DNA of 64,000 nucleotides from Limihaloglobus sulfuriphilus. Lineage in GTDB: Bacteria; Planctomycetota; Phycisphaerae; Sedimentisphaerales; Sedimentisphaeraceae. Positions 46,845 to 63,265 of this stretch are shown here, in pieces (position 1 is the first letter of the stretch; the number at the start of each line of letters is the position of its first letter). The notes beneath the pieces were generated by a model, which had not been told where the DNA came from, did no database searches, and worked only from the letters and a program-made list of their open reading frames with translations. Position numbers and translations under genes: made by a program. The stretch spans positions 806,001-870,000 of the forward strand of contig NZ_CP019646.1 in NCBI RefSeq assembly GCF_001999965.1. The letters run 5' to 3'.

Positions 46845-48181
46845 GGCTCCTCACATAAATTTGTGCGGAAAAATTTGATATAGCATATGTTAACACTTGT
46901 TATAATGATGATTTAGAACAATGTTATAGCAAGGGAAAACATATGCTGCTTAAAAGAATACTAAAAAAGACATTAAAAGTCAAGAGACATAAAGTGGTAA
47001 AAGTCGATTATAGTGACAATCAGCTCAACTTTTATTTAGACGTTCTCAAACGTCGTCGGCTGCCTTGCGGCACCTGTCAGACGCTCGCTCCGCAACGTGA
47101 CCGGCTTCCGCAACGGCAGATTAAGCATGTTCCGTTATGGGGCATACCAGTGATGCTGCATTACCGTCCGGTTCGTGTCAGCTGCCCCAAATGCGGTGGG
47201 CCGAGGGTTGAGGACATACCCTTTACCTCAGGTAAATCACGTATGACAAACGGATTGGTCTGGACCTTGAGCAGTATGGCGAAATTGCTGCCCTGGCAAA
47301 CGGTTTCTCAGATGTTTAATGTCAGCTGGAATACGGTTCAGTCTGCGGTAAAGCAGGCAGTTGACTACGGCATGAAACACAGGGATACAGGAAAGGTCAT
47401 TTATATTGGCATTGACGAAGTATCCCGCCGCAAGGGTCATACGTATATGACGGTGGTGTACGACCTGGAAGAAAAACGCATTTTATGGAGCGGCCAGGGC
47501 CGGAAAAAAGAGACGCTGGAGGCGTTTTTCAAAGAACATGGAAATTCGTTAAAAGGCAGTTTAAAGGCGGTTTGCTGTGATATGTGGCAATCGTACATTG
47601 ATGTTGTAAAAGAGCATGTTGACGAGGATGTTGTTCTGGTTTTCGATAAATTTCATATCGTACAACATTTGAATCAGGCTGTCGATGAGGTACGCAAACA
47701 GGAAGCTATCACGCTCAAAAAAGACAACCCCGAACTGCTTAAAAAAACGCGATATATCTGGCTGAAGAATCCTGAAAACCTTACAGACAAACAGCGTGCA
47801 CGTCTGGGGTATCTGGAGAAGCTGAATCTTAAAGTCAACAGGGCTTATTTATTGAAAGAATCCTTTCGTGATTTTTGGGATTACCGCTACCCTGCAGCTG
47901 CCAAAAAATATCTTGCAAAGTGGTTCTGGTGGGCCACCCACAGCAGGCTCGAACCATTACGTGATTTTGCCTGGATGCTCAGAAAACATCAGCAAGGTAT
48001 CATAAATTATTTCAAATGCCGAGTCACCAATGGAGTCACCGAAGGTATGAACAATAAAGTTAAAACAATAGTCAAAAGAGGTTATGGATTCAGGACAATC
48101 CCGACGCTGCAGTTAGCCTTATATCACTGCCTTGGAAAGCTGCCTGAACCTGAAAATATGCACAAATTTGTGTGAGGAGCC
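46845..48181 (+). mobile_element. Complete ISL3-family insertion sequence
   Basis: Terminal inverted repeats of 22 bp with one mismatch: left GGCTCCTCACATAAATTTGT (46845-46864) continuing GC, right the complement ending at 48181. They are flanked by an exact 8-bp duplication TTACTTTT (46837-46844 and 48182-48189), the target size expected for ISL3. The element is 1337 bp with one intact transposase gene whose stop lies in the right repeat. Confidence 0.95.
46943..48175 (+). CDS. ISL3-family transposase
   Basis: A 410-residue transposase. An N-terminal zinc-finger region has CGTCQTL and CPKCGGP. The DDE core (DDE_Tnp_ISL3) has YIGIDEVSRRKGHTYMTV with the first Asp, AVCCDMWQSYIDV with the second, and the C-terminal SRLEPLRDFAWML and VTNGVTEGMNNKVKTI with the Glu. 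The start follows AGCAAGGGAAAAC. No frameshift was seen; likely active. Confidence 0.95.
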   Translation: MLLKRILKKTLKVKRHKVVKVDYSDNQLNFYLDVLKRRRLPCGTCQTLAPQRDRLPQRQIKHVPLWGIPVMLHYRPVRVSCPKCGGPRVEDIPFTSGKSRMTNGLVWTLSSMAKLLPWQTVSQMFNVSWNTVQSAVKQAVDYGMKHRDTGKVIYIGIDEVSRRKGHTYMTVVYDLEEKRILWSGQGRKKETLEAFFKEHGNSLKGSLKAVCCDMWQSYIDVVKEHVDEDVVLVFDKFHIVQHLNQAVDEVRKQEAITLKKDNPELLKKTRYIWLKNPENLTDKQRARLGYLEKLNLKVNRAYLLKESFRDFWDYRYPAAAKKYLAKWFWWATHSRLEPLRDFAWMLRKHQQGIINYFKCRVTNGVTEGMNNKVKTIVKRGYGFRTIPTLQLALYHCLGKLPEPENMHKFV

Positions 48182-54433: not shown

Positions 54434-55399
54434 ATGGAAGCGAGAAAAGAAATGTTAGTGGTAAGTATTATGTTGATTTTAGCAGTTATAACAAATGCAG
54501 CTCAGCTTGGGAGTGACGGCTATGCCGACAGGGTAATTGTCCGTGATGACGGAAACGGCAATGCCCTCTGGTATGTTGACCAGTCCGGCCCGGACGGTTT
54601 CGGCGATGGTCAGGCCGATCTGGTCGGGGGCTTTGGGCTCATGACAGATCGTCATATGGTCGGCGATGTCAACGGTGACGGCTATGCAGACCGTGTGCTT
54701 GGACGATATAACACAGCTGGTTATTGGGTTTACTGGGCTAGCTTCTCTTCATCTACCGGATTCGGCGATGGGGCTGACACAAACGGCAGCTTTGGAGGTA
54801 CTGGTTTAGTTCCGTATGCTGTTGCTGACCTGGATGGAGATGGGTTGGCAGACAGGATTGGTACCTCAATTGACGGTTCGAATAATCGTAATTATGTGGC
54901 AAATAAGACCGGCGTTGGCGGAACATTCACCACTGGAGGAGGTGATTGGCAGAAATATTGGGGCGGCACGAATACGAGTCTGGCAGGTATGTTCGATGTA
55001 AACAATGACGGTTACACGGATAGAGTTGATGCTTTCAACAACAACTGGCGTGTTGATTTCGGTCCATCATCAGGGGGGTTCGGTGACAGTGCGACAGACT
55101 GGACAGGCTATTTCGGCGGTACAGGTGATAATATCACCCGTCACATAGGTGATGTCAATAACGATGGTTACGGCGACCGTATCCTGGCTACCCTTAATGG
55201 AGAGGGCAATTATGACTGGATCGCTTCATTTACCACACCTGCCGGCTTTGGTACCGCCGGCGTGGAATACAACCAGCTGGCACCTTTTGGACAGACAGGC
55301 GATGTAGTCATTCTGCATGATGTCCTGGTTCCAGAACCGGCAACTATCGCTCTGCTTGCTTTTGGCGGTCTGGGCGCTGTAATAAAAAGAAAGAAATAA
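54434..55399 (+). CDS. FG-GAP repeat protein with PEP-CTERM anchor
   Basis: A 321-residue secreted protein. The signal peptide ends near TNAA. Five to six FG-GAP/VCBS-like blades each carry calcium-binding loops: GDVNGDGYADRV, VADLDGDGLADRI, FDVNNDGYTDRV, GDVNNDGYGDRI. It ends VPEPATIALLAFGGLGAVIKR, a PEP-CTERM signal for sorting by an exosortase. FG-GAP arrays form beta-propellers that bind glycans or proteins. The start ATG follows GAAAGG. The repeat part is closely related to the start of the protein at 56429, so the two arose by duplication. Confidence 0.88.
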   Translation: MEARKEMLVVSIMLILAVITNAAQLGSDGYADRVIVRDDGNGNALWYVDQSGPDGFGDGQADLVGGFGLMTDRHMVGDVNGDGYADRVLGRYNTAGYWVYWASFSSSTGFGDGADTNGSFGGTGLVPYAVADLDGDGLADRIGTSIDGSNNRNYVANKTGVGGTFTTGGGDWQKYWGGTNTSLAGMFDVNNDGYTDRVDAFNNNWRVDFGPSSGGFGDSATDWTGYFGGTGDNITRHIGDVNNDGYGDRILATLNGEGNYDWIASFTTPAGFGTAGVEYNQLAPFGQTGDVVILHDVLVPEPATIALLAFGGLGAVIKRKK

Positions 55400-56343: not shown

Positions 56344-56428
56344 GAATACAGGGCCTTTGCTGAAAGGTAATTTAATATATGATTAAATCGCCTTAGAATA
56401 GTATTAATTTTTATTGGAGACTATTAAA

Positions 56429-58240
56429 ATGAGAGCTAAATGGTGTTTTTTTCCAATTTTTGTAGTTAGTTTTGCGGGGGTTTGTTTCTCGGCCGACTAT
56501 TACTGCGGTTCAGACGGATTCGCAGATCGAGTTATTGTCAGGGATGACGGCTCGGGTAATGCCCTCTGGATTGTTGACGCAACGACGGATGCCGCTTTCG
56601 GAGACGGACAGGGTGATTTATCCGGAACATTTGGTCTTATTACAGATTATCATATGCTTGGAGACGTAAATGGTGACGGTTACATTGATAGAGTGGTTGC
56701 CCGGATACACAGTTCAGGCAATTATTTATGGTGGGAGGTGAGCTACTCCGGCCCCCATGGGTTTGGTACTACAGGTATCAACGCCTCTACCAGTTTCGGC
56801 GGACCGAATATGATTCCTTATGCCGTAGCAGATGTGGACGGCGACGGCACCGACGACTGCATTGCTGTTGTGTACTCCGATGATGAGGACCCTGATACAC
56901 CTGATCCCCGCAGCTACTATGTTAAATATTCTGCGGGCGGGTTTCTTGCCGGAACGGTTGAAAGCAGCTTTTACGGCGGCACAAACACCGACCTTGTTGG
57001 TGTCTGTGACGTAAATAATGACGGTGTAGCAGACCGCGTGGACTTTTTCAGCGGTGCCGGCTGGAGGGCTGATTTCGGCGCTGCCGAAGGGGGGTTTGGA
57101 GACAGCCAGACTGACTGGACGGGGTTTTATGGTGGAACTAATGAAAACATAACACGTCACATTGGTGATGTAAATAACGATGGCTACGGCGACCGTGTAT
57201 TGGCAACCTTGAATCAGCAGGGATATTATGACTGGATTGCGTCTTTTTCCACCGCGTCGGGTTTTGGCACAACAGGCACAGAATACAATCAGATTGCCCC
57301 GTTTGGAGAAACTGGAGACCAGGTCATCCTTGCGGATGTGCTTACAGAGGAGCTGCCGTTTGAGCTTGCATATATAGCTCCTTATACAGATTCATTCGGA
57401 ACGAACGGCCTTTGGCACTGTGATGAAATAATCGACGCAGGAGAGGACAAGTTGATTACTCCAGATGATAACAGTGAAAATCCTGGAAGAAACCACGATA
57501 TGGTTCTCCGCAGCGGAGTTGATCTGGGTACATATGCAACCGGCCCGCAGCTTGTAACGGATAAAATCGGCGATCCTGAAAGCGGTGATGCAGATTTCGG
57601 CAATTGTTTCCAGTTTGACGGTTTCAGCCAGAGCCTCTGGGCGGATACTTTACTCAACGATAACCTGGGCGTTGACGACGGTAACTTGAGAGTAGAGGCC
57701 TGGGTGAAGTTTGAAGGAGAAACATACGGTGCCGGTGATTCGTATATGTTTATTTGTCATCATCAGCGATTCAGGCTGAGATTTGTGGATCATCCAACTC
57801 TGGGCTTCTTTTTGTCCGGCTATGTTTTTGACACTAATGTAACAGCTCATCACCTCGTTTATACTCTTCCGACAGAAGATATAAATGAGTGGAACCATGT
57901 GGCACTGACATTTTACAACGGCACCGCCAGCCTCTATTTCAACGGGAGCGTAGTTGCATCTAAAGGCGGCCTTACACCGACCATAAACCCCTCTACCACA
58001 CCGCGGGTCAGCATAGGGGCGGCAATGCATGGCGGTCCGCCTTCGTATTATTTCTATGGCAAAATTGATGAAGTACGCATCGGGCAGGCTGTCCCGACAC
58101 CGCCGCAATGCGGATACTGGGGATACAGCCCTGCAGACCTGAACAAAGACTGTTATGTGGATATCAATGATCTGAACGTTTTTGTGTCGCAGTGGCTTGG
58201 CTGCACCATTCCCGGCGATGTGTCATGCATCCCCTGGTAG
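56429..58240 (+). CDS. Secreted FG-GAP/LamG protein with half-dockerin tail
   Basis: A protein of about 603 residues. The signal peptide ends FAGVCFSA. Residues about 20-310 form FG-GAP blades (GDVNGDGYIDRV, VADVDGDGTDDCI, CDVNNDGVADRV, GDVNNDGYGDRV) closely similar to the protein at 54434. Residues about 340-560 form a LamG/concanavalin-type domain (VEAWVKFEGETYG, WNHVALTFYNGTASLYFNGS, YGKIDEVRIG). The end is a half-dockerin, ADLNKDCYVDINDLNVFVSQ, then W-x2-C. It lacks a PEP-CTERM signal. ATG 56429 lies 8 nt after GGAGA; the TTG at 56414 overlaps that region and is rejected. Confidence 0.88.
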   Translation: MRAKWCFFPIFVVSFAGVCFSADYYCGSDGFADRVIVRDDGSGNALWIVDATTDAAFGDGQGDLSGTFGLITDYHMLGDVNGDGYIDRVVARIHSSGNYLWWEVSYSGPHGFGTTGINASTSFGGPNMIPYAVADVDGDGTDDCIAVVYSDDEDPDTPDPRSYYVKYSAGGFLAGTVESSFYGGTNTDLVGVCDVNNDGVADRVDFFSGAGWRADFGAAEGGFGDSQTDWTGFYGGTNENITRHIGDVNNDGYGDRVLATLNQQGYYDWIASFSTASGFGTTGTEYNQIAPFGETGDQVILADVLTEELPFELAYIAPYTDSFGTNGLWHCDEIIDAGEDKLITPDDNSENPGRNHDMVLRSGVDLGTYATGPQLVTDKIGDPESGDADFGNCFQFDGFSQSLWADTLLNDNLGVDDGNLRVEAWVKFEGETYGAGDSYMFICHHQRFRLRFVDHPTLGFFLSGYVFDTNVTAHHLVYTLPTEDINEWNHVALTFYNGTASLYFNGSVVASKGGLTPTINPSTTPRVSIGAAMHGGPPSYYFYGKIDEVRIGQAVPTPPQCGYWGYSPADLNKDCYVDINDLNVFVSQWLGCTIPGDVSCIPW

Positions 58241-60973: not shown

Positions 60974-63265
60974 ATGGCATATAGGATTATTCTGGTATTA
61001 TTGGCCACAAGTGCATTTGCTTTTGCAGACGAATATTTTTACGGTTATACCGGGGACGGTTCAGTGCCGCCTTCGCCGGATTGGATGCATGATGCGGTAT
61101 TTTACAGCCTGAATGTTCAGCACTTTGGCAAAACCCAGACAAAAGGCTCTTATTTTGATAAGGCCGCGGCAGAGCTGGAATATGTAAAGGAGCTTGGAGC
61201 AAATACCGTTGTGATCAATCCCGTTCAGGAATTTGTTGCCAATATGCCCAAGGCGTATTGGAACGGATATTACCTCAAAGATCCCACAGCCATATCGGAT
61301 GTGTACGGCGGCGGCAGAGATTTCAAAAAATTCGTGGACAAGGCTCATTCTCTCGGCTTGAAGGTGATTGTCGATGTTGTTGTAAGGCATGTATATGCCG
61401 ACGGCCCCGAAGCCAAAAAACTGCTGGCTCAGGGCAAACACGACTGGTTTGTGCCCGGTCTTACTAAAGAGCAGTTAGAAGTCCCTTTCCGCGGCGATAC
61501 AGTGGGAGCCTACAACGCAGAAAAAGGTGAATTCGTATTTCTCTCGTTCGATTCATCCGCTGTGAGTGAAGTCAACAACCAGAAAAAATACCACTTCATA
61601 AAAAGCGATGCCGCCGCAAAAACCGTAACCGGTGACTGGGACGGCGACGGCAGAGACAGTGTCGGCGTAAGACAGCCTGACGGCACATTCTTACTGGGGG
61701 GCATTGCCCGGGCATCCCAGGTCTCTCAGGTAGAGCATATATTCAAATTTGGCCCGGCCGGCGAACATATAATTCCCATTGCCGGAGACTGGGATGGCGA
61801 CGGTAAAGATACCCTCGGCATATACGACCCGCAAACAGGCACCTTTTTTATTAAAAATTCCCTGGCGCCCGGAAAAGCGGATGCTACATTTAACGGCCTC
61901 AGGGCAGGAATGGTGCCCCTTGCCGGCGACTGGGACGGCGACGGCAGGGACACACTTGGTGAATATGACCCGAATTCGGGTAAGTTTTATCATTATGACT
62001 CTAAGGGTGAACTGGTTACGCAGGCCTACAGGTTCGGCTCCGTCGGTGAATATACCGCGGTCAGCGGTGACTGGAATGACGACGGGAAAAATGGGATAGC
62101 CCTGGTTAAAGACGCGCATCCGCAGTACGGGTATGGACACCGGTTTATTTATATCTACAAAAATAAAATATCAGGAGGTGCCGCGGACGGGACCTTTGAG
62201 CTGAATCTGCCCGCCGGTTACAATGACTGCGCGATTGCGGGTAATTTTGATTATAACGCCCAGAGGACACCGTCAATATTATTCGGCGGCACCTGCTATC
62301 ATTATAAGTGGGATAATGAAGATTTACAGGAGTATATGATTGATTTATGGGTCGATCTGGTTAGAAAATTCGATTTTGACGGTTACAGGCTCGATCTCGA
62401 GGCCTATCAGACGGTACTTGTGCCTTTTGGTAACCAGAATATATGGAAGAGGGTCATAGAAAAATGCTACAATGATTTTGATAAAAAGATACTGATCATC
62501 TCGGAAATGGACGGTATGGGCAACAACAATATTCATGCCGAACAGGATACTTTCGGAGTCCTGACCAATCTGCACTGGGACCCTGCCGGGAAAAAACGCA
62601 ACTTTATGGTAAATGCAAATATTGTAGATACCGCTAAGACTTTAGAAAATACCTATTACACAATGACACTGAGCTGTCACGACCACGCAGAATTTCAGGC
62701 CCAGGGCAGGCGGTCAACGTTCGGTTATATGGTTTTTTCACCGTTTATGCCGTGGTGGAGGATGGGCGAAGAGATAAACGCCCTTAATCTGGCTCCAACG
62801 GCGGGCACAACCGATTACGGCTATGTACTTTATTTTTCCGACATGGATTGGGATTCGCTCAAAGAGCCCGAGAAGAAGGCATTTTATGAAGACGTTCGCA
62901 GAATGCTGCAACTCAGAGAAGAATATAAAGATATCATTTCGCCGTTTTGCTCGAAATTTAAGGATAGAAATTTCACTGCCATACCGGCAGAAGGCTGTAA
63001 GCTCCAGGTTTACGCCAACTACGGCAGCGGTATTGCAATTATTGTCGCGGCAAAACTCGATGAATCAGACGGCGACGTTACCCTGAATATAGATTCGCAG
63101 AAACTGGCAGAAATGGGTCTGGGCGATTTTGAAAAATTCAGGGTTACCGAAAAACTCTACAGGCCCAATGAGAGCAGGGTTTTGAGTAAATCGCAGCTCA
63201 GTGAGCTCTGCCAGTATGTTGAAAATAATAATGTTGTATTTATGGTTATTGAAGGTTTAAAATAG
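60974..63265 (+). CDS. Secreted GH13 alpha-amylase-family enzyme with FG-GAP array in the domain B position
   Basis: A 763-residue protein. The signal peptide ends FAFA. The GH13 barrel starts WMHDAVFYSLNVQHFG. Region I is VIVDVVVRHV (D134, H139); region II is DGYRLDLEAY (nucleophile D474); region III is ISEMDG (acid/base E511); region IV is LSCHDHAEF (H569, D570). Between regions I and II, residues about 215-430 hold five FG-GAP-like units, with GDWDGDG at 220, 271 and 318, GDWNDDG at 365 and a weaker unit at 423. The usual domain B is much smaller, so the array replaces or extends it. The catalytic triad is intact, so an active alpha-glucan enzyme is expected. Confidence 0.88.
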   Translation: MAYRIILVLLATSAFAFADEYFYGYTGDGSVPPSPDWMHDAVFYSLNVQHFGKTQTKGSYFDKAAAELEYVKELGANTVVINPVQEFVANMPKAYWNGYYLKDPTAISDVYGGGRDFKKFVDKAHSLGLKVIVDVVVRHVYADGPEAKKLLAQGKHDWFVPGLTKEQLEVPFRGDTVGAYNAEKGEFVFLSFDSSAVSEVNNQKKYHFIKSDAAAKTVTGDWDGDGRDSVGVRQPDGTFLLGGIARASQVSQVEHIFKFGPAGEHIIPIAGDWDGDGKDTLGIYDPQTGTFFIKNSLAPGKADATFNGLRAGMVPLAGDWDGDGRDTLGEYDPNSGKFYHYDSKGELVTQAYRFGSVGEYTAVSGDWNDDGKNGIALVKDAHPQYGYGHRFIYIYKNKISGGAADGTFELNLPAGYNDCAIAGNFDYNAQRTPSILFGGTCYHYKWDNEDLQEYMIDLWVDLVRKFDFDGYRLDLEAYQTVLVPFGNQNIWKRVIEKCYNDFDKKILIISEMDGMGNNNIHAEQDTFGVLTNLHWDPAGKKRNFMVNANIVDTAKTLENTYYTMTLSCHDHAEFQAQGRRSTFGYMVFSPFMPWWRMGEEINALNLAPTAGTTDYGYVLYFSDMDWDSLKEPEKKAFYEDVRRMLQLREEYKDIISPFCSKFKDRNFTAIPAEGCKLQVYANYGSGIAIIVAAKLDESDGDVTLNIDSQKLAEMGLGDFEKFRVTEKLYRPNESRVLSKSQLSELCQYVENNNVVFMVIEGLK

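Follow-up and report, generated by a model that had tools for sequence, protein, structure and literature searches.

Domain B of GH13 enzymes protrudes between strands β3 and β4 (PMC11239784). In GH13_48 it comprises about 30–40 residues, similar to the propeller-free relatives discussed below, and a propeller is absent as far as these enzymes are described there (PMC11239784). Binding modules have been found at this place before: the cell-surface GH13 amylase SusG of Bacteroides thetaiotaomicron carries CBM58 inserted in its domain B, and Xyn10C-type xylanases have CBMs in the β3–α3 loop, the same place of the TIM barrel (PMC7848910). The xylanases differ in that they belong to GH10, act on xylan and have CBMs of other folds; the substrate of SusG is starch, whereas the cluster described here holds sulfatases. 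CBM58 is a different, non-propeller module, and SusG sets a precedent for the principle but none for a propeller. Among propellers, the closest described system is the lectin of UmbA4, which headed the matches of the insert studied here in both sequence profile and fold. Its six-bladed propeller binds a teichuronic-acid-like wall polymer and is located C-terminally in an antibacterial toxin particle, not inside an enzyme; UmbA5 has a five-bladed lectin, and 12 five-bladed propeller families are found among UmbA proteins (PMC13274773).

Here we analyse a gene of Limihaloglobus sulfuriphilus that lies in a stretch of 64,000 nucleotides, referred to as the window, and consists of a single unbroken reading frame (paralog 1, P0001; Table 1). 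An initial annotation had described it as a GH13 enzyme with an FG-GAP array between regions I and II and knew of no GH13 subfamily with such an insertion. For a propeller this agrees with our searches of open-access papers, which revealed neither a GH13 enzyme with a propeller nor a five-bladed module inside a catalytic domain, whereas for the principle of an inserted binding module SusG and CBM58, which the annotation left unmentioned, are a precedent (PMC7848910).

The GH13-like barrel and its catalytic residues

The Pfam family PF00128 (Alpha-amylase) matched residues 67–195 with 61.5 bits against a cut-off of 22 (E 1.1e-16). Profile comparisons by hhalign were made against a set comprising seven plain GH13-like proteins: P0006, which is a plain GH13 encoded by an Anaerolineaceae genome, and six of the eight viral-contig ORFs that match plain GH13. 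The N-terminal part (residues 22–160, three paralogs) aligned with this set through region I (98.5%, E 2.5e-15), and the whole-protein profile aligned at residues 447–704, which comprise regions II–IV (98.9%, E 1.8e-17). The C half alone matched as well (96.5%, E 7.9e-10), whereas the profile of the insert (residues 203–442) found no match in the GH13 set (probability 0.07%). Both flanks thus place the protein in the GH13 superfamily, and the foreign module lies between β3 and β4, as had been annotated; strands are named here according to the usual GH13 regions.

Regions I–IV occur in order, and D134, R472, D474, E511, H569 and D570 are identical in all three paralogs of the locus. The annotated sequence of parts, with region I (D134) followed by the module and by regions II–IV carrying D474, E511 and D570, was thus confirmed. 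No named NCBIfam GH13 equivalog could be assigned: the best model for paralog 1, TIGR02402, scored 66 bits against a cut-off of 538.8, and none of the best 25 of 32 models reached its cut-off, nor did any of the 15 and 12 models for paralogs 2 and 3, respectively. Two paralogs gave matches to GH66 (PF13199) with E 0.018 and 0.02.

Regions I and IV of GH13 enzymes typically, although not universally, contain an Asn-His pair, which we did not find in the three paralogs. In region I, position 138 is Arg throughout, while position 139 is His, Pro and Trp in paralogs 1, 2 and 3, respectively. The sequence of region IV is SCHD in each paralog, with Cys568 preceding the His, and likewise in the propeller-free relative P0007, whereas P0006 has Asn in place of the Cys. 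The changes of His139 to Pro or Trp and the Cys of region IV suggest that subsite −1 is unlike that of classic GH13 enzymes, and activity is thus not assured. The three proteins could then have little or no catalytic activity and function in glycan binding at the surface, a reading for which the loss of the region I His in two of three paralogs and the Cys in all three would speak. As R472, D474, E511, H569 and D570 were nevertheless kept in every copy, we consider it very improbable.

Table 1 Features of the paralog 1 gene and the start of paralog 2 (positions refer to the window)
Feature	Position	Strand	Evidence
GH13-like gene, 763 aa (paralog 1)	60974..63265	+	ORF; PF00128 E 1.1e-16; hhalign of C part vs GH13 E 1.8e-17
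Likely Sec signal peptide, residues 1–18	60974..61027	+	hydrophobic stretch ending AFA, read by eye from the sequence
Barrel strands β1–β3, ending in region I DVVVRH (D134, H139), residues 40–139	61091..61390	+	hhalign vs GH13, 98.5%, E 2.5e-15
Inserted predicted five-bladed propeller, residues ~174–426	61493..62251	+	AlphaFold of residues 161–450; blades counted from strand order
N-terminal half-unit DTVGAYNAEKGEF, residues 174–213, would share blade 5 with the last strand	61493..61612	+	likeness to units 2 and 3 (second half); strands 176–181, 186–190 and 203–207, lower confidence
Unit 1 calcium-type loop GDWDGDGRD, residues 220–228	61631..61657	+	sequence
Unit 2 calcium-type loop GDWDGDGKD, residues 271–279	61784..61810	+	sequence
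Unit 3 calcium-type loop GDWDGDGRD, residues 318–326	61925..61951	+	sequence
Unit 4 loop GDWNDDGKN, less canonical, residues 365–373	62066..62092	+	sequence
Closing strand with degenerate loop CAIAGNFDYN, residues 419–428	62228..62257	+	model strand 419–423; sequence
Region II, β4, DGYRLDLE (R472, D474), residues 469–476	62378..62401	+	hhalign columns match GH13 DGFRAD
Region III, β5, IISEMD (E511), residues 508–513	62495..62512	+	hhalign
Region IV, β7, LSCHDH (H569, D570), residues 566–571	62669..62686	+	hhalign
C-terminal part, residues 637–763, near-identical in paralog 2 (96% nt)	62882..63262	+	paralog comparison
Start of paralog 2, 762 aa, running past the window end; then paralog 3, 798 aa	63274..64000	+	ORFs

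A predicted five-bladed propeller between β3 and β4

The insert contains four GDW(D/N)xDG calcium-type loops starting at residues 220, 271, 318 and 365. The corresponding units 1–4 resembled one another, with five of six pairs scoring above all 500 shuffles and the pair of units 3 and 4 being reached by 8 of 500; chance repeats were thereby ruled out for these units. The fifth of the five calcium-loop units annotated initially fared differently, as its loop (GNFDYN, residue 423) is degenerate and its scores were reached by 13 to 228 of 500 shuffles. Furthermore, a half-unit, GDTVGAYNAEKGEF, precedes unit 1 from about residue 174. Units 2 and 3 resembled it in their second halves (1 of 500 shuffles each), and it was indistinct from shuffles when compared with units 1, 4 and 5 (171, 499 and 64 of 500). 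With this half-unit the insert extends over about 250 residues (~174–426) and not the 215 given originally.

AlphaFold modelling of residues 161–450 with five sequences yielded a pLDDT of 77.2 and a pTM of 0.78. The modelled strands (19 of at least three residues and one of two residues) were arranged as three strands, then four groups of four, then one closing strand. From this strand order, residues ~174–426 are predicted to form a closed five-bladed propeller. A half-blade at the start together with a last strand is what a closed propeller requires, and the fifth blade would be closed in this way, although the first half-blade was modelled with less confidence (pLDDT blocks of 48–77). The full-length model (residues 1–763, three sequences) was poor (pLDDT 44.4), the insert being its best part. 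The annotated FG-GAP identity is in line with the repeats of about 45–55 residues, the Dx(D/N)xDG loops and the blade fold, the last by prediction, whereas Pfam FG-GAP_3 stayed below its gathering score of 26.9 bits in the three paralogs (20.2, 26.2 and 25.8 bits). On either side of the module the β3–β4 connection seems to be partly kept (residues ~140–173 and 427–446), suggesting that the module is embedded within this connection.

Relatives of the inserted module

The best PDB sequence-profile match of the insert was 9oee (E 3.7e-4 for the chain, 0.006 for the best stretch alone), whose chain has repeated GDF(N/D)GDGR-type loops. From its title, 'S. griseus TUA bound UmbA4 complexes', we infer that this entry is the UmbA4-polymer structure of the published work (PMC13274773). 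It also headed the Foldseek matches (E 3.2e-9, the next being 1.5e-5) with a TM-score of 0.48 on the query, and the VIA matches (Z 12.1, rmsd 4.6, 235 aligned residues), where rows 2 to 6, at Z 11.7 to 11.2, lie within 1 of it and are treated as ties. These rows comprise a nucleotidase twice, a fungal GlcNAc lectin, BBS9 and glutaminyl cyclase; fungal GlcNAc lectins occurred among the Foldseek matches as well, integrins held Foldseek ranks 2, 3, 5 and 6, and a viral fold library gave weak matches only. The nucleotidase of rows 2 and 3 is the human calcium-activated nucleotidase (2h2u and 1s18; Z 11.7 and 11.5; 231 and 239 aligned residues), which is 8–9% identical to the insert and an enzyme in its own right. 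Its propeller has five blades.

Since the closest solved relative is a polysaccharide-binding propeller lectin, the insert may well serve as a substrate-binding platform, as the initial annotation had supposed. This lectin reading is weakened by the high Foldseek ranks of integrins, because propellers also bind proteins, and by the figures for 9oee itself, namely the E-value of its best stretch, its TM-score and the six blades of UmbA4. The module could accordingly be one for protein docking or surface anchoring that ties the enzyme to the other secreted proteins of the cluster, with sugars bound by others. Integrin alpha and other protein-binding propellers in the fold lists are consistent with such a role, as are FG-GAP-like repeats in two neighbouring genes and a dockerin-like stretch at the C-terminus of paralog 3, which scored below threshold (14.8 bits, cut-off 22.9). 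However, the top match in both sequence and fold is a lectin that binds polysaccharide, and the insert shows no close relationship to the one FG-GAP neighbour that we compared; we thus regard docking or anchoring as unlikely.

We also considered that the insert had been copied from the neighbouring FG-GAP genes, for which no support was obtained: the best match to the 608-aa gene at 56414, the sole one compared, had E 0.39. A search of the whole genome with the insert profile (E 1e-6) returned no match beyond the three copies. Related units were found in a contig of a viral collection (IMG/VR), where an ORF (L021:2425-3651) ends in five insert-like units (35% identity over 177 residues, E 4e-28). 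By reading of its sequence, this ORF appears amidase-like with a C-terminal GDWNGDG propeller, and it is possibly an endolysin with a propeller as wall-binding domain. The likeness to UmbA4 and other lectins, together with the related units at the end of this amidase-like ORF, suggests that the insert is a mobile lectin-type module.

Length of the β3–β4 connection in propeller-free relatives

A PF00128 search of 40 genomes, own genome included, gave matches in 22. Among the matches listed, the gap between barrel matches flanking β3–β4 was 11–43 residues with a median of 37 (all 21 pairs, from 16 genomes). The distance from the start of β3 to the DGxRxD motif of β4 was 341, 338 and 331 residues in the three paralogs versus 114 in P0006 and 63 in P0007. 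In P0007 (L011:1411-3156), 169 residues separate the region III Glu from the region IV Asp, compared with 59 in P0001 and 81 in P0006, so that this protein has an extra stretch at another loop.

Judged from these sequences, a very short domain B appears to be common for barrels of this kind in the order. The β3–β4 loop that received the propeller was probably short already. As the connection is very short in relatives that have no propeller, the loss of a normal domain B does not have to be assumed here, and the replacement of domain B by the propeller that had been annotated is not established. This bears on the idea that the propeller took over the role of domain B, lining the cleft and contacting the substrate so that its face sets specificity. 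The insertion site, where domain B protrudes in other GH13 enzymes (PMC11239784), is what one would expect in that case, but the short gaps in all 21 pairs listed, the likewise short connection of P0007 and the poor full-length model (pLDDT 44) argue against it and make such a takeover quite unlikely.

Three tandem copies

The two following genes, spaced 8 and 7 bases apart along the series, code for full-length paralogs that have 762 and 798 aa (paralog 2 at L005:3274-5562) and share 68% and 61% identity with paralog 1. The layout that the initial annotation had seen to begin in the next gene is complete in both. An assembly error, which had been discounted there, was ruled out by the one-contig genome and the three diverged copies. 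As the propeller occupies the same site in all copies, its insertion most simply preceded the triplication of the gene.

The copies do not diverge evenly. Paralogs 1 and 2 share 96% DNA identity over residues 637–763, where 94% of third positions are kept at identical residues; this share falls to 58% for the propeller and to 72% for either barrel part. Between paralogs 2 and 3, DNA windows over residues 21–80 show 89–97% identity. This high identity at the ends, C-terminal in the pair 1/2 and N-terminal in the pair 2/3, looks like a gene-conversion pattern. In all three pairs the propeller was the most divergent of the four parts, with 50–52% protein identity versus 69–74% for the two barrel parts. 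Its faster change may reflect relaxed constraint; a propeller more diverged than the barrel would also be expected if each copy recognised another portion or form of a sulfated polysaccharide.

Occurrence in other genomes

Full-length matches were confined to the own genome in three overlapping sets, that is, none of the other 58 relatives (E 1e-20), none of the other 160 genomes of the order (E 1e-15) and, with at most two candidates scored per genome, so that only two of the own three copies appear and matches may be missed, none of the other 391 genomes of the phylum (E 1e-30). Under the same limit of two candidates, 28 of the other 396 genomes of the class, a set that overlaps with the former, matched at E 1e-10, with whole-length matches again confined to the own genome; among the matches listed, 24 comprised the N part of the barrel alone and four the propeller part alone. 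Inspection of seven class loci (~3.3–3.6 kb each) revealed the N part of the barrel without propeller in four and a propeller without barrel in three, and the profile of the C half matched none of the seven. The C half alone matched the own genome and one of 293 others. Outside the phylum, an exact-peptide scan led to two loci, one with a plain GH13 and one with an FG-GAP protein, neither of which has both parts. The combination was not found in viral, plasmid and phage collections either, where few or close relatives were reached, and we do not claim uniqueness.

Barrel and propeller together were thus not seen in the other sampled genomes of the phylum at the limits used, while each occurs separately. 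Homologues with the same insertion site are at these limits represented by the own three copies alone.

Gene cluster and possible substrate

Upstream of the paralogs, on the opposite strand, lie a URO-D gene, a sulfatase, an MFS_2 sugar transporter and a GntR-type regulator with a periplasmic-binding-type domain. Next come an FG-GAP/PEP-CTERM gene, an FG-GAP/LamG gene and a CBM9 gene. The two FG-GAP-like repeat proteins (54434-55399 and 56414-58240), one with PEP-CTERM and one with LamG, are possible surface proteins of the cluster. An ISL3-type transposase gene (46943-48175) is located some kilobases upstream of the cluster. Downstream follow a rhamnosidase-like gene, two sulfatases and an esterase–GH13 fusion. 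The latter is a 1305-aa ORF (L005:12021-15938) in which an esterase-like alpha/beta hydrolase is fused to a GH13-like barrel, whose region I Asp, as read from the sequence, appears to be Glu.

The whole 3.87-Mb genome gave four PF00128 matches (E 0.001), namely the three paralogs and the fusion gene, all in this one cluster. The bacterium may therefore be without ordinary GH13 enzymes for glycogen or starch. With all PF00128 genes confined to the cluster, starch or glycogen is unlikely as the main substrate, and an alpha-linked sulfated polysaccharide would be the better guess.

Conclusions

Taken together, we consider it moderately likely that the gene product is a secreted GH13-superfamily glycoside hydrolase and that a five-bladed lectin-type propeller in its short β3–β4 loop acts as an internal carbohydrate-binding module. 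Besides the barrel homology, the conserved catalytic residues and the matches of the predicted propeller, this reading is favoured by the greater divergence of the propeller, by the CBM58 precedent and by the sulfatases, the rhamnosidase-like gene, the MFS_2 sugar transporter and the GntR-type regulator of the cluster. A calcium-loop propeller of the lectin type would have been inserted into this loop, and its first and last strands would complete one blade; a module closed in itself could be tolerated there without disturbing the barrel. The propeller would then hold a polysaccharide near Asp474, Glu511 and Asp570, where retaining GH13 chemistry would cut it. Its nearness to the cleft is made less certain by the poor full-length model. 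More far-reaching, and in our view doubtful, is the assumption that the three genes founded a GH13 group whose propeller, a new type of internal carbohydrate-binding module, has a face that is continuous with the cleft and makes up with it one surface for an anionic, sulfated polysaccharide, the copies having diversified as gene conversion acted on their flanks while their propellers diverged.

If the carbohydrate-binding reading is true, a whole lectin-type propeller would join those modules for binding that GH13 barrels are known to carry in place of, or within, domain B. The three natural variants, with their better conserved barrels and divergent propellers, would allow a direct test of what an inserted module contributes to the targeting of polysaccharides. 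In a genome whose PF00128 matches all lie in this cluster, the finding points to GH13-type activity on sulfated polysaccharides.
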